Assembly: GCF_032854445.1 (NCBI RefSeq)
Contig: NC_088297.1
Location: forward strand, 11,554,163-11,618,162
Direction: 5' to 3'
From: Liolophura sinensis
Lineage: Eukaryota > Mollusca > Polyplacophora > Chitonida > Chitonidae
Length of the DNA stretch: 64,000 nt
Each line of letters starts with the position of its first letter. Position 1 is the first letter of the stretch. Shown in pieces: positions 18,601-63,961 of the stretch. Position numbers and translations under genes: made by a program. The notes below the pieces were generated by a model that saw only the letters and a list, made by a program, of their open reading frames with translations, did not search any database and was not told the DNA's origin.

Positions 18601-21600
18601 GAAATACTCCCAGGCCATATCGATTATCTTCTTTAACCTTTCAGAAAAACCGATTTGTTTGAACTAGATATTCGATCGAAACGGAAACATTTTGTGTCCA
18701 TGAGGTCTCGTGGTGAATCCCTGCTTCCAACAGTTCGGTTGATGCCTTGTGTTAGGACGTTTACTGTGTACTTAACAAGGTACTGTTGTTGTCTCTAGGC
18801 TCAAAAGGGGTTGGATGCCGCTCTCAAAAATTTTTCACTTAATATATGACAGTGGTCAGGTGAGGGAACCCTCCTTAAAGCCACAGGCGACGTATAGCGA
18901 GAGCTGAATTCGAACGCGCGACCCTATTCAACAAAGGCCTGACAATGGCATTGAGCTATCACTTTAACCGTCTTAGCCAGTAAATAAACAAAACATAAAA
19001 AGAAAAAGAACAAAAATTCAAGGAATTAATTCTTAAGCATTTTATTTATTTCAGCCGATGGTAAAAAAATCTTCTGTTACTTCAGCAGTTTTGCTCAGAC
19101 TCGTCCCGGTAAAGGAAAGTTCCTGCCTGAGGACATCGACCCTTACCTCTGTACACACATCATCTTCGCCTTTGTGGACATCACTAGAGATGGAACAGAC
19201 CTGAAAACTTTCAACTGGAACGACGTTGGAAATAACGGTAAAAACATCGTTTACATCTGTATTCCGATTGCTATAAAGATTACCGACGCATAAAAGGCCC
19301 CAAAAACACGAATAGTTAAATTTTCACATTATAAATCTGCTTTAGTTTGAAGGAGGATAATAAATTTAGTACGTTGTCATCTTCAACTAACTTACGCAAT
19401 GAGGACGTCAGAGTTTTAGTAATCATGAAATAAACAAGAAAAGTTCATTCAATCATGACGCCAGGGCGCATATTTATCGAACAACTTAAAACGGAAATCA
19501 TAAACTGCATGTGTTTAAAAAGACAGAACCTCTCCGGCCGTACGTGGGAAGGTCTGCCAGAGACCTGCGGATGGTCGTGGCTTTCCCCCGGGCTCTGCCG
19601 TCTTGCCCCCCCCCCCCCCCCCCCCACCAAGGCCGCAGTCGTAAAAGTGAAATATTCTTGGGCACGGCGTAAAACACCAATCACATAAATAAATGAGATA
19701 AAAAGCCACAACTCAAACTGTGGTTAGTACATTGTTCTGCAGTAAAGAATCAGTGTACAAATTTTGAACTTCCTAGAGCAAAACATTTTAATTGTCACTG
19801 TGATCGAATTATTGATTTAAAACTGTCTTAAAACTTTTGATAAAGATGGCTTAACATCTATATCCTTTGCGGTATTGAAATGGAAGAGTGTACTTTAAAT
19901 CCAAGCGCGATCAAATCCATATCAATTTCACCTTTTTTCTGTCGTAGACATAAATGCTTGTATTGGCTAGGATCCACAATGAGGGTGACTCAACACTCTG
20001 TGTCCACGGAAAAAATAATGATTACAATAGTTGTTTTATTTACACTAGCGCTGTTTTGCCTCAGATGGAATTCCTAGCATTTCTTTGCGATCGCCTGTCT
20101 TCTGCCCTTAAATATATCTATAACGCGACGAACTTATTCGTTGCAGTCTCTTGAATTTGTTTTCTTTTGTCCTTTATTTCATGGACGTTTTGGAACGCTT
20201 CTGATGTCAATTGTCCTGGACGAGAGAATCTTCAATGTGCATATTTGTCATCCAGAGAACGTAAAACAACGTCCGTTTATTTATTTATTTATATTTTTTC
20301 TTGGTGTTTTATCCCGTACTCAAGAATATTTCACTTATACGACGGCGGTCAGCATTATGGTGGGAGGAGCCCGGTGAAAACCCACGACCATCCGCAGGTT
20401 GGTGGCAGACCTTCCCAGGTACGGCCATAGAAGAAGCTAGCATGAGCAGAACTTGAACTCACGGCGACCGCATTGGTGAGAGGCTTCTGGGCCATTACGC
20501 GTCGTCCTTTTGATCGAACAAATAATAACATGTACGTAAACAACAGGGACCTCGAGGAAACCGATTTTATGAAAACATGTCGTCCTCTTTTTTTCCTCAG
20601 GGTTATACAAAAGAACCATTGCCTTAAAAGAAAAGAACCCGAAATTAAAGGTTCTTCTCGCCGTTGGCGGCTGGTCCATAGGTTCAAAGCCATTCATCCC
20701 CATGATAAGCTCGAAGAGCAAACGTCACACATGGGTGAAGAACGTCATCAAATATTTGCGCAAGTAAGTATTCTTAAACTTTTTCGATAATGCTTATATC
20801 ATGTGTAGCTATCGATTTAAACAACATTTCTCAGACAATTTTCAAGTCGTTAGCCTCTACCTTAAGATTTACTAGCTGGCACATAATACATAGGCACTAC
20901 AAACTCGCGGAACGGTTTAACGTAATAAGTTTTAACTTAAGATCTAAATTGCAACTTGCGAACTTTGACGAAACGGGGTCCTGACTATAAGGATACTTTT
21001 GCCTTCTCAAGATTTCTTTTTCAGTCCACTATTGGATTTTCAGCCGAATTGTCTTTCTAGCAATGAACATGGTTTTTCATGACACAAATGGACATGTACC
21101 TGGAATGTCTTTCTGGTATCATTGAAAACTCTTCAGCCATGGTATATAAATGTGATGATAATACAGCATTTTGAGAAATTCTACACAGTTAAAGTCCAAT
21201 ATATTGGAATTAAGATCAACTGCCTATTTTTTATTTACCTAATTCTGCTTTAACCATTGTGTTAGAGGGAGTAATTTGCTACTGTTAAAAGTTAAGTATG
21301 AAACCCTAACTGAGGTAAATTGACAGGAGATCGAATTTCACCTGTAGCATCTGATCTTTTTCCCAATTATCACACAGTCGTCGCTGCTCTGGTCATATTT
21401 TTATTATTGGTGCTGATTTTTGTTTGTATACCTCTCTGTCTGTAGGTATGAATTCGACGGGTTTGACATGGACTGGGAGTTTCCTGCCACTAGAGGCAGT
21501 CCTCCAGACGACAAATACAGGTTCACTCTTCTCATGAAGGTAACGTCATGGATACTTGTGTGATTTGAGCTTGATGTTTCTCATTATTCCATCAGAAATT

Positions 21601-24600
21601 TTTTTCAGCCAAAACAACAGCAATGGTATAAGAATAATTTTCTTACAATCATAGAAAACTACATCACAAGATATCTGTACACAGCTGTATGGTGCTTGAT
21701 ACCCGTTTCATACACGAGGGAATTGTCTACGTACATGTGCAACAAATATACTAAGTCTATATCTATAGTGTTGCCGTTGTTGTTGTGTGTGGCTATTATA
21801 TGAGAAATGCGTTAGTTCCTACGTTCAACGTAACAGGTTCTAATGTTTATTTTATTTAATTCTTCAGGAACTTTATGAATCATTTGCTCAAGAAGCTCGT
21901 GAGACCGGCAGAGATAAACTTCTGCTGACTCTGGCTACAGCCGCGGGAACGTATTATATCAGCCAATCATACGAGCCGACAGAAATTGTCAAGTAAGTCG
22001 CCGAATTTAATTGGAAGAACTTTCTTCCGGTTGTTGTTCTACAAAACGATATCTGTTAGATGACCTTTTTATGCGGCCATTCGAGCCCATTGAACATAGT
22101 TCAGCAGAAAACGTATATCAGAAGCAGACGCATACATATAAATCACGTGGTTGAAATATTCAAGCCTAGTATTGAGCGCATCTTCTTCTTTTTTTTTTTT
22201 CTTGCTTGCTTTCTTTTTTTTTTTTTTGGACCTGTACAGGCTCATCTAAAGCGTCGATCTCTCTAAACAACTTCCTTGGTTTGGCTGAGGCTTTAAATCA
22301 TGAGCTTTTCAAGTACCAGTCCAGGTGCGGTTTCTCTGGTTGTTGCCTGATTTCCACCGCCTTCACATCATTGAAATATTCTTCAGTATGGCGTTAAGCC
22401 CCAAAATAATTGAAGAGGTAAATAAACACATATGTCATGTGCACCGTTGTCCTTTTCAGATATGTCGATTATATGTTTCTGATGACATATAATTACCATG
22501 GTGGCGCGTGGGAGCAGGTGACAGGTCACCACGCCGGGCTTTACCGACACAAGAACGACCCGCCTGGCGAGAAAGGACAGCTGTACCAGGTAAACTACAC
22601 CATTCACTGCTTCGGTCGGCATAGGGGCATACCTGTGAAATGAAGGTAGAATTGTGGCTCTTATAAATAATGTACTTGAGTACTTGGATATGCTGCGGTG
22701 TCTGAAAGAGTATTTCTTACGTATTTCTAAGTAATATTTTGTACATACTGCATTTCCAAGATGGTGACAATTACAAATTAATAGTATGTATACAGTTTGC
22801 AAACTATTTCCCCCAAGAAGCCTACAAGCTAAAGACTTACATTTCATAACACTCTAATGTAAAGAATTACAATTCAGAACACTATAATTTGAAGACTTAC
22901 AAATCAGAACACTTACATGTCAGAACACTGTAATGTAGGTATACCTGCATTTCATTACACCGTACAGTAAAAGCTTAATACATTTCAGACTGTGGAATCT
23001 TAATTTAAGCCATCAATTTGTAAGTGAATAGAGCGCGTTTCGTCACAACCTCCATTTTTTCTACCACATAACGTTTCCGTAAAGCCGTAGACCGCACTGA
23101 TAATAGTGGACAAATTAACGTTGTATCATTTCAGCAATGGTCTATTGACTTCTGGCTCGATGCCGGAATACCCAAGGACAGACTCGTTGTAGGAATTCCG
23201 ACTTACGGAATGACTTTCCGATTGGCTGATCCCAGTCAACACGGCGTGTTTGCTCCAGCCATTGGTGGAGGTACTAAGGGAGAATACACCGGGGAGAGGG
23301 GCATAATGTCTTATTACGAGGTAGGTTGGCACGAGCACCAAAGTTTGGCTAAGTGCTTTGCTGCGTCTAACACATAAGCTATATTGCTGACTATAATAAA
23401 AAGACTTCGATAAAGAGATTAAGTAGAGACTTAATACAGCGTAAAACCAGAGCAATGGCAGCAGTTTTATTTCTTGTCCATATAGTTTATTATAAATAGG
23501 CATACGTGATTTACCCCCACCTCTCACTATTCCATGCTCATGTGTTACAGGTTTGTGAGCGTCTCCAAGAGAGAGGCTGGAAATCAAAGTGGATTGACAG
23601 TCAGGCTGTGCCCTATGCTTATGGCGGCGACCAGTGGGTGGGTTATGAGAACAAGGATAGCATTAGGCTGAAGGTAAGTCACTTGACATGTAGATACAAA
23701 ACAATCCACGCCCGATGAATGTGTTAGACAGGAGCAACAAACATTTAGCAAAAATGCTTTCTGGAATCACGTTTGTCAAGAATTGAAGAGTAACGGGCAA
23801 AGAGTAGTATTTCCTCTCTGGTTTAGCTGCGGGTTTACGTTAGTTGGTTTTCCAGGTAGATTTGTTTTTTAGATTTCTCCATTTTTAAACCTTGTCGCCA
23901 CCATACCGAGACATTGCGAGAGTTACATCAAAGGGACAAGACTCCGCCAGCCACTATATCACAAGATAAAAGAAAAGTGTGCGTTTGTGTCCTGACATGT
24001 TGTGGTGAAAAATTGTCTAATAAATCGCTCCGAAAAGAATCGAGATCAAACCTTTATTTAAATGTATGCATAAATTTTTAAGTTACTGAAACTTAAAACA
24101 CACGGACAGACACACAGAAAAAATAAAATGAAAAGATAGCCCTCTGGTATTAGTATTAAATGAATTTATTTTTCTCTCAAAAGGGGAATAAATGTATAAA
24201 ATTTTGTTATGTGTTCATGGTAAACAAAAAACAAACCATATTGTTATTTTCATCCATCACCAAAGAAAATTGACTATTTATTTATTTATTTTTTGGCAAT
24301 AACTGAAAAGAACACTAACATTTCATCCCTCATTGTGTTCGGATTATGGACACGCAAGCAGAATATGTGTTTCAAACATTACTAACCCATTTACCAAATT
24401 ATTAAACTAACATTTGTCAACAGTATGAAAAAACATTGGCTTTCTTCACTCAGGCTAAGAACATTATGAAGAGAGGCTTGGCGGGGGCGTTTGTGTGGTC
24501 CGTAGAGATGGACGACTTTGGTGGCACCTGTGGCGAAGGGAAGTATCCGTTGATGAGTGAGATCACAAAGATTCTGAAGCCTTACAACGGCATGAAACAG

Positions 24601-35600: not shown

Positions 35601-38600
35601 TGGGAGTATTATCTTTGTACTCTATCGCTTCAGAGTATTTTAATTACCGGTGCACTCTGGCGTTTCACAGTATTATCATTACCGGTACAGTCTGGCGTTT
35701 CGGAGTATTATCTTTGTACTCTAGCTTTTCACAGTATTATCATTACCGGTACACTTAAGCTTTTCAGGATATTATACTTGTATTCTGTCGTTTCATAGTA
35801 TTATCATTTCACTCTGACGTTTCAGAGTTGTACATCTTTCATCATGCCCCGTTGCACTCACTGGGTGTATTATCAGTGCATACTTAGTTGCGTAGTTTGA
35901 TAAATTACCGTGATAATATTAGTTCTGTTCATCTCAGACAAGTTTACCCTTAGTTCTGTGTGTGTGTGTGTGTGTGTTTTTTTTTATCCTTTAGAGGTCC
36001 ATCCACGAGTATTGTTAATTTACTCTTTTCTCCCAGATAGTATTATCATATTTTTCTATGTATTAAAACTGTGAGTGGTCAATTACTTGTATGAGTACCA
36101 TCGCGTTCTATTTATAATTTCATCCCCTAGTATTATCAATTTGCTCTTTTTCCCCCACAGAGTATTGTTAGGGTTCAAACTAATAGTGATTTCAGACTAT
36201 GTGTAGTCAATTACTTATGCGAGTACCAGCATGTTTTACTATAGTTACCTTCACGAGTATTATCAATTTACCCTTTTCGCCCCAACAGAGTATTATCAGC
36301 GTACTCTGGACCTCAAGCGAAGGAATCCCGACCTGAAGGTGCTGTTGGCCGTGGGCGGGTGGGACATCGGATCTGAGCCTTTCGTTGCCATGATGAGTTC
36401 TCCGGAAACACGAAGGGAGTGGGCCAAAAATGTCGTCAAATTTTTAAGAAAGTAAGAATTAATACGATTTTGTTTTCCACATATTTATTCAGAGCTTGAC
36501 TGGCATTGTGAAATAAATCAATTCGAAACACTGTATTATGGAGGAAAATTGAGAAAAAAAGAAAAAAAGCGAAAACTAGCTTTAAACAGAAGAATGTCGA
36601 TTCGCATTACCGTTTGAATGAATCATGGAGGTATATATACCTCTTTGAATGAATTAATGATTATGGCTGAGCGCCACATTGTCAATATTTCGGCCCTATC
36701 GTGGTGACATTACAGTTTGAGATACTTTGTATAACTACCTCAAATAGTACAATCCTTAATTTGTGTTTGAGGAACTTGGCAAAAAAGGTTAACTCCGGAG
36801 TACCTGGAGTAGATCGCGACCCTTTGCCAGATACATGACAAATCCCCTGTCTAAATACCAACCAGAGCTGGATTCGAAGCCGTGACCTTACAGGCCATGG
36901 GCCGTTATGCAATGGCAAACACAGCCCTGTAAGACATCGTTCAGGTAAAACTATATGGCATCATCTGTTCCTTATTAACCACAGTTACGGGTTTGATGGA
37001 TTAGATATGGACTGGGAATTTCCAGGCACACGAGGAAGTCCACCGGCGGATAAATACAGATTTTCAGATCTTTTAGAGGTAAGTAAATTTACACTCTCAC
37101 GATTCTTAGTATGGAAGATTTTTCCATCTCGTTTCTACGCTGGAACGCCTTGACCCTTTGTAGCCGTAAATGACGTCCCATCTATATACATATACCTGGT
37201 ATATTCTAACGCTCAGAATTTTGCAAACCTACCCTAAATTCTCAGCGAATTCGATAAAGCGCTTATTTTGACATGCAAGAAGACATGAAGAATGTTATTT
37301 TATCTGGACAGATCATTTAAATTTATACTTTACTGTTATAATTCGTTCATGATTTAGGATAAGTTATATATGAAGATGGTGCATCGGTAAGCTATTTTGA
37401 ATGAATGGTCACTGGCCCCGATGGCTCAGTTGGTCAACGTCCGCTTCGGGGACGGTAAATCCAGGATCAGTCCTGGGTTGGGGCAGGTGGCTTACTTGCC
37501 TTCGGTAAGTCGTCTCAGTGAAGCAGCACTAGATAAAAGAGAGGAGGAAATCCGTCTGCAAGGAGGAGGCACATTACACGTATATAAACTCTAACGACGC
37601 CTTCGTCGTCGTATGACTGAAGAATTGTTATGTACGACGTTAAACCCTAAGCACTCACTCACTTGTATTCACTAAATGAATGGTCTATATGATGTGGGAC
37701 AGAAAAATGATAACCCAGTAATATTCAATTATTGAAAATGTTTCAAATATAAGGCCTTGACATTTCACAAACCTAACTTAACGGCTATTTGCAGCCTTTC
37801 GTGAAACCTTCAGAAGCATAGGCTAAGCATAATATTTAAACGTAACAAAATTTGAAAGCATGTGTTTGAAATTTAGGAACCATATCCCACACATTTGATG
37901 CCATTGTACATTAGATAAGCAATTTGTCAACATAATTCACACATACAACTTTTATACAATATTCTATGCGGTCACTCTCTCTCTTGCATCATACATTCAG
38001 GGATACACTTTTAATTTCTCGCTGTTTTAACTCTGTTTCACCTGTGATATTTTGTATTTCATTGAAGGTTGCCTAATAGCCATTACAATATGTGTCAGAA
38101 ATATCAAAATCTTACGTGTTTAAATCTTGTGAAGCATTGCGAATTTAAGATGCCATTTTTTTGGTTTTCCCTTTATTGGGTCTTCTGGAGTGTACAAACA
38201 CGCTCTCCTCCCATCATAATGCCATCGTAAAAGTGAAATATTCTTGAGTACCGCGTAAGACATCAGTCAAATAAATAAATAAATGCGAAATACGGCGAAT
38301 GCCAGATATCTTAGATGTCGGACTTCCGTCTTCTGTATCTTCCATCTCGCTGTGTGGTAAAAAGACAACAGCAGTTAAACCAGCTAAATTTGTAGCTAGC
38401 AAATATCACTGTGCTTTTCGGTTGTTCCCACCTGTAATCAGTGTTAGTTGCAATTACCAGGTGTGTACACTGGGATGTAGAGATCAGGTAAGTGTTCCAG
38501 GATCTCCCACGCTTTGCCTCTAGTCTATTAGTCACAGTAACGCAGGACTAATTAACTCAGGTGACATACAACAGTTAGCTGCCCAGGTAAAGCGGACTGC

Positions 38601-41600
38601 GTGGCGACCAAAATCACGGTGTTGGAATGCAAGGTCAAAAGTGCACGATACATGTTACTAGGCTTTAGAGGTGACACGGAAAAAGGCACGATGTGACATT
38701 TGTCATAACATCCTGCACAGACAGATAAAACACCTGCTGTCGTTACACTCAAAAAATTACTTTGTTAATTCTAACAGAAAGTCTCTTGCCTGAGTGATGC
38801 TAGAATGTATTCTGTTATTGCAATAGATTGTTCTTTTAAATATAACACGCATATTTTATTAATTCAACATAAAGATTCTACTAGAATAACAGAATATTAT
38901 GTTGAATGTGACATAGTATTGTGTTATAACAACAGAATACAATTAATTTGTTAATTCTAACAGAAAGTCTCTTGCCTGAGTGATGCTAGAATGTATTCTG
39001 TTATTGCAGTAGATTGTTCTATTAAATATAACACTCCGTCGTATATGTGAAATATTCTTGAGTACGGCGTAAAACACCAATCAAAAAAAAAAATAATATT
39101 AAATATAACACACACGTTCTATTAATTCAACATAAAGATTCTATTACAATAACAGAGTTCTATGTTTAATAAGGCATAATATTGTGTTATAATAAATAGA
39201 ATACATTCTATCATCGCTCAGACAACATATTTTCTGTTAAAATTAACAGATTAATTTTTGGAGTGTAGGTTTCATCTATAAAGATTGAGCATTGGTTACA
39301 ACAAGCGGTCGAAGACACTGTAGCTCTTCTGAAAAATAGGTTACATTATGTGCATGTTAGGGCCCGCTACATTTTCTGTTACACTATTTAGGTCACAAAC
39401 ATACATATGTATACCTGCATCTGGAGTTATATCGGAGATTTTTGACAAACAGCGACCAACTTAAATCCAGTTGAATTTTTGCTATTATTTTGAATAACCC
39501 AAATAATTACCTTATACAAAGCATTGTCCCTGACTGTGCACATGTTACAGTTCAAAATCGGCAATAAACTTTCTGAAATTTTTAAAGCGGGTCGCATTAT
39601 AACTTCAGAATCATTTTAGCACTATGGATAGTAAAAGTAAGAGTTTAATGATATTTACTGACAAGAAATTATTATCAGTTTGGCTATTCTTGCTTAATAC
39701 ATAGAATTTGAATTGCCAAGCGAAAGTGGATTTTTTTGGCCAAAAATCTCAGTTAAAGCCTCTTTAAATAAGAGAAGAATAACACCTTTGACATTTCCAC
39801 ACAACCTTCCTGGAAATCATCATCCGTCTGCTAAGAAGGTCGTATTACACTTGCATACTTGGACGCTTAAACTATTATCGCTGCATATCTTTAGGTCCTC
39901 CAATACGAGTTTACTGAAGAAGCACGCAGGACCGGAAACGACAAGCTGATATTAACCTTAGCAACTGCTTCCGGTACATACTACATTGACCAGTCGTATG
40001 AGCCGTGGAAGATTCCAAAGTAAGTAGAAGTAAATGTACTCCTACACTAATACTTCATGTCAAAGTTCAGAAGATAGAACGGCATAAAAATTATGAGATA
40101 TTTAACATATTGACACCTGACCGTGCGTCTGTGTAGTCGACATTTGTTTTGGTTTATATCTCTTGGAGTAGAATTGATATATTATAAACATAATAATAAT
40201 GTGAATGAACCACATAATGTTCCGGTTAGTCCTCGCACTGTTCACCCGGAACAGGGCTCAACTGTTAATTATGCTGTTGTAGATACATAGATTACATGTT
40301 GCTGATGACGTATAATTACCATGGCAACTGGGAGAACGTCACAGGGCATCACAGTGGACTAAACGCTCATTGGTCAGATTTCGTTACTGAGAGGCCAGGA
40401 CAAACGGAACTCCATCAGGTATTTGATAAACACGATTTCAAGTGATATAGTTTGGAATAACCTTAAACTTCTGATAAAAATTTATACAAACGTCAAAGGT
40501 TCAGAATTTTTTTATAACTTGGGGTCCAATTAACCATTTGGAGCTGTCTGGTCTTCAATATTTCTTGGATTATCGACAGTAACAGACTAATTGGAGCAAT
40601 TGTTTTGGAATAGCAATAAAAGTTTGCGCTTTCTGGCAAACTTTGGCATTCTTTGGGTTTGTGTCCAAGCCCTAGGCATTTGAAACTGACAAAGCTATGA
40701 GCAATACCTTGTTTTAAGTGAGGACTTACCTAAATTGCTAAAAACCACGTCTTGTGTGTGTAGCTCTTGTATCCTTAACTGGTGAGGATGTATGTATAAC
40801 TGTAATTCTTAGTGACAATGATTAGACACATTTCACATGGAATGTAGTTTTCAAAAGTGTAAAACTAAATTGAATTTTTTGAAGGGGAATATTTAATCTC
40901 GATTGCAGTACAATACGTATATCACAACAAAAAGGCAGAATGCAATATTTTTTTTACAGTTCCCTGCAAGTTCAGAATTTTTATGCAAATGGTAAACTGA
41001 TTTGTGAAACTCTTTAGATTGATGCCACAATCTAACCACATCATCAGATCGGTAAATGTTATTTAGTACATGATTTTAGTGACGAAGTCATAGTAGTTTG
41101 GGATTTACACTTTTTGGACAAAACATGTGGGAGTCTTGTTGGCGAAATAGCCTAGACTGCCTAGCATAACATGCGTCTAATTTGGGAGGTCGTTGGTTCG
41201 AAACCCGGAGTAGTCGTAGCCGATTTATTTGCCTGTATTGCAATCCACAAAGAGTGTAAGTCAAATAAAATTAATAACGCTGTTTTGTATACGGTCTTTA
41301 CAGTTTTACACAAGTTGCAGTTCAACCATAGCGCTGTATTAAGCAGAGAGCACTCGTCCATTATATCGATAATACTGTTTTGCACACGGCCTTCATAGTT
41401 TTACACAAGTTGCAGTTCAAGCATAGCGCTGTATTAAGCAGAGAGCGCTCGTCCATTATATCCATAAAACTGTTTTGCACATGGCCTTCATAGTTTTACA
41501 CAGGTTGCAGTTCAAGCATAGCGCTGTATTAAGCAGAGAGCGCTCGTCCATTATATCGATAATACTGTTTTGCACATGGCCTTCATAGTTTTACACAGGT

Positions 41601-44600
41601 TGCAGTTCAAGCATAGCGCTGTATTAAGCAGAGAGCGCTCTGTCCATTATATCGATAATACTGTTTTGCACATGGCCTTCATAGTTTTACACAAATTGCA
41701 GTTCAAGCATAGCGCTGTTATAAGCAATAGGCGCTTGGTTAATATATCGATAATACTGTTTTGCACACGATCTTTATAGTTTTATAGAACTTGCAGTTCA
41801 ACCACAACGCTGTTATAAGCAATAGGCGCTTGGTTAAAATATTGATAATGCTGTTTTGCATATCGTCTTTATAGTGTTACGTAAGTTGCAGTTCAACCAT
41901 AGCGTTCTTGTAATCAGAGAGCGATTGTCCATTCTATTGATAATACTGTTCTGCACACGGCCTTCATAGTTTTACATAAGTTGGAGTTCAACCATAGCGC
42001 TGTTCTAAGCAATAGGCGCTTAGTTAATATATTGATAATGTTGTTTTTATAGTATAGGGTTTTTATAGTATTACATAAGTTGCAGTTCAACCATTAGCGC
42101 TGTTATAAGCAGTGAGCGCTTGTCTTTTCCAGCAATGGTCTATTGACTACTGGCTGAACAAAGGTATGCCCAAGGAGCGGTTGATCGTCGGCCTCCCGAC
42201 CTACGGTATGTCGTTCACATTAGAGGACCCCAGAAATAACGGAATCCGAGCCAAAACCGTAAACTCCACGGACTGGCGGGAGCGTGCAGGGGACGCAGGG
42301 CCTTGGACAGAGGAGAGGGGCGTCCTGTCTTACTATGAGGTCAGTTATTTATTTATATTTGTTTGGTTGGTTGTTTTACGCCGTACTCAAGAATATTTTA
42401 CTTATACGACGGCCGCCAGAATTATGGTAGGAGGAAACCAGGCAGAGCCCAGGGGAAACCTACGACCATCCAAAGGTTGCTGGCAGACCTTCTCACGTAC
42501 GGAGGTCAGTTAACTCGTGAATACACTTCTCTGCGAAGAGTACATTTTAGTCCTTCTAGGCTTCTGTTTCGCTTATTCTGCTAATCGCCCCTGGATTTAA
42601 TCCACTAGCAAAAGCTAAAAACATTTAGCTAGAGCAATTACAACTGCAGGCCTTATAGAGTTTGGTTTGGCAATGACTCATGTGTGATACTCCATTGGTT
42701 GGACGCGCACATCCTTAATGAAAAACCAACTTTATTGTATCAAGGGATTTAAAAGTTTTACCTTAGCTTGCTCGCCAACAAAGGTGCTGTGCAGTGAGGT
42801 CTGTCAGAGTCTTGGCTCTCCTTACCGCTACGCATTACCGGTAAAACCCATAAGATTGGCATATGAATCTATATGAAGTAAAACCCATGAGATTGGCATA
42901 TGAATCTATATGAAGTAAAACCCATGAGATTGGCATATGAATCTATATGAAGTAAAACCCATGAGATTGGCATATGAATATACCTATTATGCATCAACTG
43001 AATACAATTGAACAATAATAAAAAAAATAACATTAGTTTTAATTAAGTACTCTGTTCACATTCTCTTCCAGATTTGTACCTTCCTGAAGTACCAGGGGTG
43101 GGACAGAGAGTGGATTCCCGACCAGCGGGTGCCTTACGCGACGAAGGGGGACCAGTGGGTCGGGTACGAGGATGTACCTAGCATCACAATAAAGGTGAGT
43201 ATTAATCTCTCACTCACTACCCAAGGAATCTATAAGGCGCTGATCAAGACTTAATTAGAGGCCCTTCACTGAAACCAAGTAGATTCCTGCCTGACTAGTA
43301 AGGTCAAAGGCTCGAATCCAGGTCTCGCTGGTTCTTTTTCCGCTTAAGTCTGATGGTTTGTCAGTTATACACTACGCTTTCATCCACCCATAAACCTGAA
43401 CACCGTTTCGATTGCGGTTAAAAATTTCATTTATATCACGCTGGAGAAATCGATGAATGGGTGTTGGAAAGCGGAGGAAACCACGGCATCTCGTGTGAAG
43501 CAAGAAAGCAGCTGGATTCGATCCCCCGACCTGTCAAGAGCATGTGTTCTGAACTAAGGCTCTATCAGCGTGGTTCCCTTTTCCGTTTTCAGCGTGGTAC
43601 TTGCATGGTGTCCCAATAAAATAGTTAGCTGTCCTGTTTTGGGAATAGTTTTGTTGTAATTGGAGACGTACCCAAACTGATACCGTATACCCATTTAAAG
43701 CACGAACCAAAAACATGATTTTCTCCCCTTACAGTCCGAAAACATAATGAGCAGGGATTTAGGGGGAGCTTTCGTGTGGTCCGTTGAAATGGACGACTTC
43801 CGCGGGGTGTGCGGAGAAGGGAAATATCCTTTACTCAGCAAAATTAACGAGATTCTAAAACCACAACCAGAAGGGCCGACAACCCTGCGCCCTCCTTACA
43901 GAACACCGCAGCCCGTGCGTATCACGCCTGTACCGACGACAGCAGCCCCCCCTACTACCAGCCAACCGACGCGAAGGCCCGCAACTCGCACCACACCTCG
44001 CACACGTCGTCCAACAACCAGGCGGCCATACGTGACGACGCCGCGACGGACGACAGTGCGACGAACGAGTTCGTGGTGGACAGCCCGCCCAACCACTCGC
44101 AGGCGACCGGCACCAACCACCAGGCGGCCAGTGGCAACAACCAGGCGGCCATCCGTCACTCGTCCCCCTGCACAAAGTAAGTGGAAGTGACCTCAATGTA
44201 TTCAAACAAGCGTGTTTGAGCTTTAATTAAATTAGTCATAAAAAAAAAATTATTGCCTAACGCATTCGGGCCTAAGTTTCGAAATTTTTTTTTCATTCCT
44301 GTTTTACAATAACGATTTGTGGGCAAAATGGTAACCTAATACATGTACTCGTGTATTGCCCAAGAGTGACAATGGTCAATACCTCTTGGGCCTGAGTGGC
44401 CATTGCCTGGAAATAGGTACTCTATTGCAAACTATAACGTAGGGGCCTAAATGTGGAACATTAAAAGTGGTGAATACATTTACACAATTTTTCGAAACTA
44501 GTATCAAATAAAATTCAACTTATATGTTTCAGTTTAAAAAAAAAAAAACAAAAATAACTTCCCAGATCTTTAGTAGGCTTACATGGTGTGTCATCATACT

Positions 44601-45133
44601 CCGCATGCCCACATCTTTCGAAATATTTTAACATGATAGTGTATTTTATGATGGCTGACAACAGCCATCTAGACAGCGACCTTGGGGACCCCACGGGAGG
44701 CGCTATTTTAACAAACCCACGCCTTTTATGCACCCTCCAAAAACGCGGAAGACGCCACAAACGCGGATCCGCATTTTCCGTGCCTTCTGCGTCTTCTGCG
44801 GGGGCACGAAGGTCGCGGTGTTGTTACAACTGCGCCCTCCGTGGTGTCATGCTCAACAAACGGACGCTATCAGCCACCCCCACATTTCGCGATAACAAAA
44901 AAAAAACAGCACCAAAAAAAAAACAATAGATGATATAACCATTCACTATTTATATCTTTGCAGAACTGGACTGCACATATTTACCAGACGGAATCCACGC
45001 CGATCCTACCAGTTGCTTCACCTTTATATTCTGTGCGGAGGGACGAGCCTTCACGCTTAAGTGTTCTGCAGGCACCAAATTTGACGTCGACAGAAAAGTG
45101 TGTGACTTTGAAAAGCTGGCTAAATGTCCTTAG
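29563..45133 (+). CDS. Secreted GH18 chitinase B (10 coding exons, 562 aa)
   Basis: Predicted chitin endohydrolase and tandem paralog of chitinase A. Exons: 29563-29623, 31659-31826, 36289-36451, 36985-37078, 39895-40019, 40283-40418, 42133-42339, 43072-43194, 43735-44176, 44964-45133. All introns are GT-AG, with the same nine phases as chitinase A. Exons 3, 4, 5 and 8 have identical lengths in both genes (163, 94, 125, 123 nt). Residues 1-20 form a signal peptide ([20 protein letters not shown]). The GH18 barrel spans about 22-400: LLAVGGW at 95-101, DGLDMDWE at 135-142 (proton donor E142), MTYNYHG at 212-218, [11 protein letters not shown] near 371-381. A Thr/Arg/Pro linker with TTRRP repeats covers about 403-506. 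The CBM14 domain has Cys 510, 524, 530, 540, 553 and 561. As in A, the motif reads YN where many chitinases have YD. A SINE sits immediately after exon 7 and duplicates its donor site. Confidence 0.95.
30898..31012 (+). repeat. SINE-A 3' fragment in chitinase B intron 1
   Basis: Truncated body (CCGGGCTCTGCACGGTCCCA) and full tail with AAATAAATAAATAAATA. Plus orientation. Confidence 0.8.
31459..31567 (+). repeat. SINE-A 3' fragment upstream of exon 2
   Basis: Truncated body and diverged tail (TGTGGCATAAAACTCCTGTG) ending GAATAAA. It lies about 90 nt before the exon 2 acceptor of chitinase B. Confidence 0.75.
31896..32119 (+). repeat. SINE-A copy in chitinase B intron 2
   Basis: Body and tail, with the head truncated. 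It begins about 70 nt after the exon 2 donor. Plus orientation. Confidence 0.8.
32487..32706. mobile_element. MITE-like element D, copy 2
   Basis: Shares the terminal sequence GTTAATTTTAAC and the TCTGAATGATGCTAGAATG block with copy 3 (38746-39267). It ends with the inverted counterpart TTAAATTTAATAGATTATTC. It is non-coding and diverged, and lies in chitinase B intron 2. Confidence 0.6.
33376..33609 (+). repeat. SINE-B copy, 5'-truncated, intron 2
   Basis: Plus orientation. The body has CTTCGGTAAGTCGTCTCAGT and the end of the element has ACGTTAAACCCCAAGCACTC. The tail is a (CACT)n repeat. Confidence 0.8.
34017..34182 (-). repeat. SINE-A copy in chitinase B intron 2, antisense
   Basis: Minus orientation, with the tail complement TTTATTTGATTGGTGTTTTA at the left. 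The body extends to CGTACGACCGGAGAGGCAGC; the head is absent. Confidence 0.8.
35510..35835 (+). repeat. Degenerate tandem array of about 30-bp units resembling the exon 3 start
   Basis: About ten units carry AGTATTATC, then CTTTGTACTCTGGCG or ATTACCGGTACACT, then TTTCAG. Exon 3 of chitinase B, 450 nt downstream, begins AGTATTATCAGCGTACTCTG right after its acceptor CAACAG. The array therefore looks made of copies of the acceptor plus the first exon bases. Confidence 0.75.
35958..35978 (+). repeat. TG microsatellite
   Basis: (TG)n followed by a T run in chitinase B intron 2, between the tandem array and exon 3. Confidence 0.9.
35998..36300 (+). repeat. Acceptor-like repeats leading into exon 3
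   Basis: Three diverged copies of a block with ACGAGTATTGTTAATTTACT and a C/T tract ending in AG occur before the true site. Examples are TTTCTCCCAGATAGTATTAT near 36031 and TTTTCCCCCACAGAGTATTG near 36150. The real acceptor is CGCCCCAACAG at 36288. The decoys resemble functional 3' splice sites. Confidence 0.7.
36985..37078 (+). CDS. Chitinase B exon 4: GH18 catalytic motif
   Basis: Encodes [18 protein letters not shown], carrying the complete DxxDxDxE signature with Glu142 as proton donor. It is 94 nt, phase 2 in and phase 0 out, matching the equivalent exon of chitinase A. No frame or motif damage is seen, so activity is expected. Confidence 0.95.
37400..37685 (+). repeat. SINE-B with tRNA-like head and target-site duplication
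   Basis: Reference copy of family B at about 37411-37665, in chitinase B intron 4. It has the head GGCCCCGATGGCTCAGTTGG with a tRNA A box and a B-box-like GGATCAGTCCTGG. The element ends GTACGACGTTAAACCCTAAG followed by CACTCACTCACT. The flanks AATGAATGGTC at 37400-37410 and 37675-37685 are a likely target-site duplication. Confidence 0.85.
38202..38284 (+). repeat. SINE-A 3' fragment, chitinase B intron 4
   Basis: Short tail piece (CCCATCATAATGCCATCGTA, GAGTACCGCGTAAGACATCA) ending AAATAAATAAAT. Confidence 0.75.
38746..39267. mobile_element. Composite MITE-like element D, copy 3, with nested SINE tail
   Basis: The outer inverted repeats are long, about 75 bp: the left end starts CACTCAAAAAATTACTTTG and the right end is its near complement, ending TTTTTGGAGTGT. 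The left half is partly repeated in tandem (TAACAGAAAGTCTCTTGCCT occurs twice). A truncated SINE-A (39035-39097) lies inside, flanked by ATTAAATATAACAC at 39021-39034 and 39098-39111. Confidence 0.75.
41142..41220 (+). repeat. tRNA-like relic before the 95-bp array
   Basis: It contains TAGCCTAGACTGCCTAGCAT and a good B box (GGTTCGAAACC), reminiscent of a tRNA-derived SINE head. It does not fold as a convincing functional tRNA on reading and is annotated only as a relic. It lies directly upstream of the minisatellite in chitinase B intron 6. Confidence 0.4.
41275..42125 (+). repeat. 95-bp minisatellite, about 9 copies, abutting the exon 7 acceptor
   Basis: Units of 95-96 bp contain CTGTTTTGCACACGGCCTTC, AGTTGCAGTTCAACCATAGC and AGCAGAGAGCGCTCGTCC. 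Later units diverge (GCAATAGGCGCTTGGTTAAT). The last unit merges into the polypyrimidine tract of the exon 7 acceptor (GCGCTTGTCTTTTCCAG, ending 42132), so part of the splice signal appears to be repeat-derived. Confidence 0.9.
42337..42512 (-). repeat. SINE-A inserted at the exon 7 donor of chitinase B, duplicating it
   Basis: SINE-A in minus orientation (42348-42501) is flanked by identical GAGGTCAGTTA at 42337-42347 and 42502-42512. The first copy spans the exon 7 donor (GAG|GTCAGT), so the target-site duplication created a second identical donor 165 nt downstream. The 55 codons between the donors are free of stops in the gene's frame. Splicing at the second donor would add 55 SINE-encoded residues between SYYE and ICTF. 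Confidence 0.85.
42841..42985 (+). repeat. 37-bp tandem repeat, 4 copies
   Basis: The unit contains GTAAAACCCATGAGATTGGC and ATATGAATCTATATGAA. It is nearly perfect and lies in chitinase B intron 7, about 90 nt before the exon 8 acceptor. Confidence 0.9.
43735..44176 (+). CDS. Chitinase B exon 9: end of GH18 barrel and T/R/P linker
   Basis: Begins [19 protein letters not shown] and continues to EILKPQPEG, the end of the barrel. A linker rich in Thr, Arg and Pro follows, with repeated units such as TTRRP and [18 protein letters not shown]. The Thr content allows O-glycosylation and the Arg content makes it strongly basic. The matching exon of chitinase A is instead Lys/Trp-rich. Confidence 0.9.
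44964..45133 (+). CDS. Chitinase B exon 10: CBM14 domain and stop
   Basis: Encodes a compact CBM14 module with six Cys (510-561) and ends KLAKCP then TAG at 45131-45133. A TATAAA at 45188-45193 followed by TG-rich sequence may serve as a non-canonical poly(A) signal; no AATAAA is seen close by. Confidence 0.92.

Positions 45134-49155: not shown

Positions 49156-63961
<14,806 letters not shown>

Follow-up and report, generated by a model that had tools for sequence, protein, structure and literature searches.

A SINE insertion that copied a splice donor in a chiton GH18 chitinase gene

INTRODUCTION

Which of two identical splice donors would a gene use when a retrotransposon lies between them, and what becomes of the codons that separate the two? 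This question is raised by a chitinase gene, here called chitinase B, in the window (the whole stretch of 64,000 nt of Liolophura sinensis DNA that was analysed), where a short interspersed element (SINE) lies at the 3' end of exon 7. Below, the gene and its duplicated donor are described, the site is compared with paralogous genes and with other SINE insertions, and the possible consequences for splicing and for the protein are weighed.

RESULTS

A GH18 chitinase gene and its exon 7

Six exon pieces, from 36985/36986 to 44176, join into 1125 nt with zero stops, and the joined exons up to 43863 belong to glycoside hydrolase family 18 (GH18; PF00704, E 4.3e-57), with exon 7 falling inside the Pfam match. 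The DxxDxDxE motif of GH18 is present (DGLDMDWE, intact in the exon at 36986-37078), and the best solved relative of the joined exons is the acidic mammalian chitinase 3fxy (E 2.6e-69). Upstream of this gene in the window is chitinase A, a tandem relative with exon matches at 19066, 20600, 21444, 21883, 22461, 23135, 23551, and 24454. By tblastn within the window, exon 7 is 51% identical to the chitinase A exon at 23135-23320, and the next exon, which has AG before it and GT after it, is 54% identical to the one at 23551-23673. A genome search with the DNA of exon 7 gave no second match. The exons that matter here are as follows.

42133..42339, plus strand: chitinase B exon 7, 69 amino acids (QWSIDYW...GVLSYYE), phase 0 at both ends
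43072..43194, plus strand: next exon, ending ...SITIK; its acceptor would serve either donor
43735..44176, plus strand: following exon, with the end of the GH18 domain (FVWSVEMDD) and a Thr/Arg/Pro-rich linker

Several further features of the gene were observed. A CBM_14 chitin-binding domain at 44939-45133 (E 3.7e-11) lies downstream of the GH18 domain and the Thr/Arg/Pro-rich linker and is presumably part of the same gene. Exon 7 carries, at 42241-42309, 7 extra residues between GIRA and GPWT relative to chitinase A, an excess about as large when several other paralogues are compared. A tandem array of 95-nt units (8.8 copies, 41280-42124) makes up the end of intron 6 to within 8 nt of exon 7; the branch point and pyrimidine tract region of exon 7 may derive from its repeat units. 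Within intron 7, a second array of 37-nt units (42841-42979, 3.8 copies, 99% match) is probably of recent origin or varies in length.

A donor copied by a target-site duplication

At the end of exon 7 an exact direct repeat of 11 nt, GAGGTCAGTTA, occurs twice with a start-to-start spacing of 165 nt, and this pair is the sole direct-repeat family of at least 10 nt reported between 42100 and 42800.

42337..42347, plus strand: target-site duplication, copy 1 (GAGGTCAGTTA), with donor GAG/GTCAGT, first intron base 42340
42340..42504, plus strand: potential in-frame exon extension of 55 codons (open frame)
42346..42375, plus strand: U-rich stretch, mostly antisense SINE tail, at +7 to +36 of the first donor
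42348..42501, minus strand: SINE copy of 154 nt, antisense to the gene, 5'-truncated, without a tRNA-like head
42502..42512, plus strand: target-site duplication, copy 2 (GAGGTCAGTTA), with donor GAG/GTCAGT, first intron base 42505

Allowing up to one mismatch, GAGGTCAGTTA has 3 matches in the 64 kb against 0.94 expected (3 is reached by 4 of 100 shuffles), the third of which, at 52455, carries 1 mismatch. A chance origin of the repeat was ruled out, as its copies sit at both ends of the SINE copy. Since the SINE majority sequence (ACGTACGG) likewise continues with the G found at 42502, element and repeat overlap by one base at the truncated end, and the duplication measures 10 or 11 nt. Both donors are identical from -3 to +8, with differences between the copies only outside the 11-mer; pairing with U1 is therefore equal, and only context differs. 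The initial annotation had placed a SINE insertion here, with the donor copied in its target-site duplication, and this was borne out by the repeat that flanks the SINE copy; its coordinates for the two donors, 42339/42340 and 42504/42505, 165 nt or 55 codons apart, were right as well. A genuine splice donor copied whole by the target-site duplication of a retrotransposon is thereby confirmed.

The A-rich tail of the SINE copy is at its low-coordinate end, where the gene strand reads TTTATTTATATTTG. Besides itself, the insert has 40 matches in the genome among the 40 scored of 6743 first-look candidates; 39 of these listed matches span about 150-165 nt at 88-91%, and the remaining one spans 43 nt at 86%. 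Many other copies extend past ACGTACGG into CCGGAGAGG... and then into a head that carries A and B boxes, and because they continue past this point the chitinase copy is taken to be 5'-truncated and to lack the promoter-like head. With at most 1 mismatch allowed in the A box and at most 2 in the B box, the two boxes occur in order in 21 of 41 alignments, a number that includes the query. Two loci (L014 and L015) are near-identical and look like one duplicated stretch, which is counted twice in the tallies of SINE copies. In the heads, ARAGORN found no tRNA in any of 5 loci and Rfam returned nothing in either of 2 loci, so the head of the family is tRNA-like at most. The features expected of a tRNA-derived SINE were all found: dispersal in multiple copies, A and B boxes in the family, and a target-site duplication with an A-rich 3' tail. 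A literature search with two SINE core strings gave no match among the papers listed. Within the 64-kb window the SINE core yields 28 blastn alignments, query included, and this region is densely populated by the family. In two other copies (L003 and L027) the truncation is seemingly at or beside the same ACGTACGG point as in the chitinase copy.

Paralogous exons as substitutes for the empty site

The state of the site before insertion was approached through paralogues: 17 stretches (L032-L048) were taken from 67 exon-level GH18 matches and compared together with chitinase A. In 11 of these 18 paralogous exons, the last codon is that of the glutamate in Y-Y/P/T-E, and GT comes directly after it, in phase 0 and without a SINE; the identical GAG/GTCAGT was found in 3 of the 11 (L038, L040, and L041). 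The exon end was not placed in the remaining 7 (L033 and L043-L048), of which six gave tblastn matches of 36-60 residues and L044 none. Since 11 of 18 paralogous exons share this SINE-free position, the exon-side donor position is very likely ancestral. GTCAGT itself is the donor of this intron in 4 of the 12 GH18 genes where the intron was recognised (chitinase B and 3 of the 11 paralogues), as if it had long been conserved there.

How often SINEs copy donors

The genome report for Liolophura japonica gives 85,584 SINE copies in 609.5 Mb (PMC11068029); it also puts heterozygosity at 1.22-1.26% and lists RNA-seq from five tissues, namely digestive gland, foot, gill, gonad, and heart (PMC11068029). 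A hand estimate, which takes 3 to 7 placements per donor that would copy all of -3 to +6 and assumes 100,000-200,000 donors, arrives at roughly 40-200 donor-copying SINE insertions on the premise of random insertion free of selection. A pattern search for AGGTNNGT at most 28 nt before an antisense tail returned 48 matches, of which two share a site, while the reversed control returned 0. The 25 loci fetched from these 48 matches represent 24 distinct sites, 8 of which carry an exact repeat of 9-29 nt overlapping AGGT, as candidate donors only; the whole of AGGTNNGT lies inside the repeat in 4 of the 8 (L049, L059, L061, and L070). At L063 and L067, open frames of 51 and 45 codons end at the AGGT-overlapping repeat and have no Pfam match, and L061 has a long frame with a repetitive translation. 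In the titles and abstract openings of the literature searched, no donor copied by target-site duplication was found, which is not proof of absence.

An open frame through the insert

A stop-to-stop open reading frame (42109-42513) runs from exon 7 across the insert to the second donor, its stop being the third codon beyond the second GAG. The proposal that the frame of the exon stays open through the SINE up to that donor, for 55 codons, thus holds, with zero stops in the joined exons that were checked. Either donor joins the exon at 43072-43194 in phase 0; the exon would be 207 nt long with the first donor and 372 nt with the second, and the would-be introns 732 and 567 nt, respectively.

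The accompanying claim that an in-frame, open insert is rare was not borne out in that form by comparison with the family. Among the 30 copies that span the whole stretch, which are those most like the chitinase copy, 11 are of a length that, added to an 11-nt duplication, preserves the frame, and in the chitinase phase 8 of these 11 are free of stops as well. Hence 8 of 30 would also be in frame and open here, and about a quarter of such insertions at this site would look the same. Read antisense, the SINE core is open in the three frames in 28, 34, and 28 of the 37 copies covering it, a tally in which indels in the copies shift the frame labels; the open insert is less remarkable because the antisense core is nearly stop-free. 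Two positions of the chitinase copy stand out against the family: at 42364-42366 the family majority reads TGA (35 of 39 have the A at 42366) but the chitinase copy TGG, and the T at 42372 of the chitinase copy is missing from 30 of 40 copies.

Strength and context of the two donors

On a human matrix, both donors score 3.56 and are the top GT sites in 42250-43071, the next being at 42426 with 2.28. By that matrix a C at +3, as in GTCAGT, is unusual. Among 9 other donors of the two chitinases in the window, 3 score lower (1.58-3.55) and 6 higher (5.03-8.46), and the three AG/GTRAGT donors reach 7.59-8.46 vs. 3.56 for GTCAGT, which is thus weak to middling for these genes.

The contexts of the two donors differ in composition. 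Behind the first donor, 20 of 30 nt (+7 to +36) are T, a count reached by 0.32% of the 30-mers in the window, vs. 8 of 30 behind the second, a flank that by construction is also that of the rebuilt empty site. Mean unpaired values for the first and second donors were 0.32 and 0.12 with 40-nt flanks, 0.33 and 0.25 with 60, 0.33 and 0.24 with 100, and 0.19 and 0.24 with 150, and 0.25 and 0.24 when both were folded jointly, so that prediction does not separate them consistently. The section of PMC2766253 on a human minigene describes how a pyrimidine tract between two donors lets the upstream, weaker donor win via TIA proteins, and how the effect was maximal with at least 9 consecutive U, while shortening the tract moved use to the downstream donor. 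In the SINE tail the U runs are merely 3-4 long, and the effect here is perhaps weaker or absent for that reason.

The 55 residues as protein

The 55 residues start with VS, followed by an 11-residue hydrophobic run with a mean hydropathy of 2.9, and gave no match in Pfam at E values up to 0.1. Against the family majority the insert has 13 substitutions, 4, 3, and 6 at codon positions 1, 2, and 3 (third-position P 0.24, a small sample); no coding constraint on the insert is seen in this test, which is weak at such size.

Counted on the alignment to 3fxy, the junction of the insert follows YYE after index 284, which we take to be residue 305 (offset 21), some 8 residues past the subsite glutamate. 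The junction is presumably enclosed by the bounds of the chitinase insertion domain. The 55 residues had initially been placed late in the GH18 barrel, and the alignment moves their entry into that insertion domain instead; a junction on the barrel or on the active-site glutamate was ruled out by its position after index 284. It would split YYEICTFLK, a stretch nearly unchanged in the three aligned relatives, all of them acidic mammalian chitinases. Because the hydrophobic run would split the chitinase insertion domain, the 55-residue form is probably defective, and it would be a minor isoform at most.

Whether the gene has kept its function can be approached from the private changes of the insert, defined as sites where the letter of the chitinase copy is found in no more than 4 of 41 alignments (8/154 per site). 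Assuming that all 8 arose after insertion, although the source copy may have carried some (40 of 6743 candidates were scored), the same drift would give 2.75 stops in 1125 nt, with 0 observed (P(0) 0.06), and 2.41 in the GH18 part alone (P(0) 0.09). The stop-free joined exons argue weakly that gene function, and hence the upstream donor, has been retained.

DISCUSSION

Which donor is used?

The observations are probably best explained as follows. A 5'-truncated tRNA-type SINE would have inserted antisense, precisely at the donor of exon 7 in a GH18 chitinase gene, presumably by the usual target-primed reverse transcription. The 11-nt target-site duplication would have copied the whole donor, the upstream one keeping the exon and the downstream one the native intron flank, and because the donor was copied whole the gene would have been left unbroken. 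The original upstream donor would then make most or all of the mRNA, the 55-residue form being minor at most, and most likely the SINE would simply be intronic. Upstream use would be favoured by the exon 7 context and the retention of a 207-nt rather than a 372-nt exon, by the U-rich flank that the antisense SINE tail would supply, a kind of sequence to which TIA-type proteins bind, and by the gene having stayed open though the insert carries private mutations. Against upstream use stand the frequent choice of the intron-proximal site between equal donors, the broken U tract, and the weak to middling strength of GTCAGT.

Unlikely, yet to be taken seriously, is that both donors are used appreciably and give two chitinases, one with 55 more residues in the insertion domain, in a ratio set by exon and intron context. 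The identical 11-nt donors fit such a division, as do the open frame, which gives no reason to expect nonsense-mediated decay, and the score of GTCAGT (3.56 vs. 7.59-8.46), by which neither copy is overwhelmingly strong; it is disfavoured by the lack of visible constraint on the insert and by a hydrophobic run of 11 residues (mean hydropathy 2.9) within an enzyme. GH18 chitinases are usually secreted. Where two donors are equal, splicing often prefers the intron-proximal one, as in duplicated-donor minigenes, and this preference, with the native intron flank that stays with the second donor, would suit a takeover by that donor that made the 55 SINE codons constitutive. We consider a takeover distinctly improbable, given the U-rich flank favouring the first donor, an exon of 372 nt vs. 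207, the splitting of the nearly unchanged YYEICTFLK, and, again, no constraint over the insert. Least credible of all is that the insert or one of its flanks was mis-assembled: the evidence does rest on one assembly, but the target-site duplication is clean, exon 7 and the insert are each placed once at 100%, and the Liolophura japonica assembly is described in its genome report as HiFi-based, with 632 scaffolds (PMC11068029).

With predominant use of the upstream donor as the preferred reading, a more specific form of it can be suggested rather tentatively. The insertion could be self-buffering, bringing both a donor pair identical toward U1 and its own U-rich bias, such that the gene works and the 55-residue variant appears at a low level or in particular tissues.

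Known systems and significance

The chitinase case is of a known kind, and its closest relative met in the literature is the SINE of canine merle. The passage on merle in PMC7349775 describes a reverse-orientation SINE at the boundary of PMEL17 intron 10 and exon 11, flanked by a 15-bp target-site duplication that is otherwise single and lies, with the original acceptor, at the start of exon 11. In both cases an antisense SINE landed on a splice site with a target-site duplication (PMC7349775), and in merle, too, the antisense tail forms a pyrimidine stretch that influences splice choice (PMC7349775). Merle differs in that the site is an acceptor, the poly(T) is long, and a cryptic acceptor within the SINE gives rise to the abnormal product (PMC7349775), whereas in the chitinase the donor was copied whole, the copies are identical, and the alternative product is in frame. 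Merle also has a known phenotype (PMC7349775), while the chitinase case is known from its sequence.

Two other systems share parts of this arrangement. In antisense Alu exonization, as presented in PMC2766253, competing 5' splice sites are likewise separated by the U-rich stretch of an antisense SINE; the upstream donor wins there, as it is predicted to do here, but the Alu donors are of unequal strength, the downstream one being engineered (PMC2766253), whereas the chitinase donors are identical and one is native. In introners, as in the chitinase SINE, a target-site duplication supplies a splice site (PMC9860276). Introners create a new intron (PMC9860276), whereas the chitinase SINE sits at the edge of an existing one and creates none: the intron was found already present in 11 of 18 paralogous exons, unlike the new intron within an exon that defines an introner.

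The value of the site is as a natural test of donor choice. Native exon sequence precedes the upstream donor and SINE sequence follows it on the intron side, while for the downstream donor the exon side is SINE and the intron side native; this is a natural factorial design in which the effect of exon context could be separated from those of intron context and proximity. For the chitinase gene itself, the insertion illustrates how a target-site duplication can render an insertion on a splice site tolerable.
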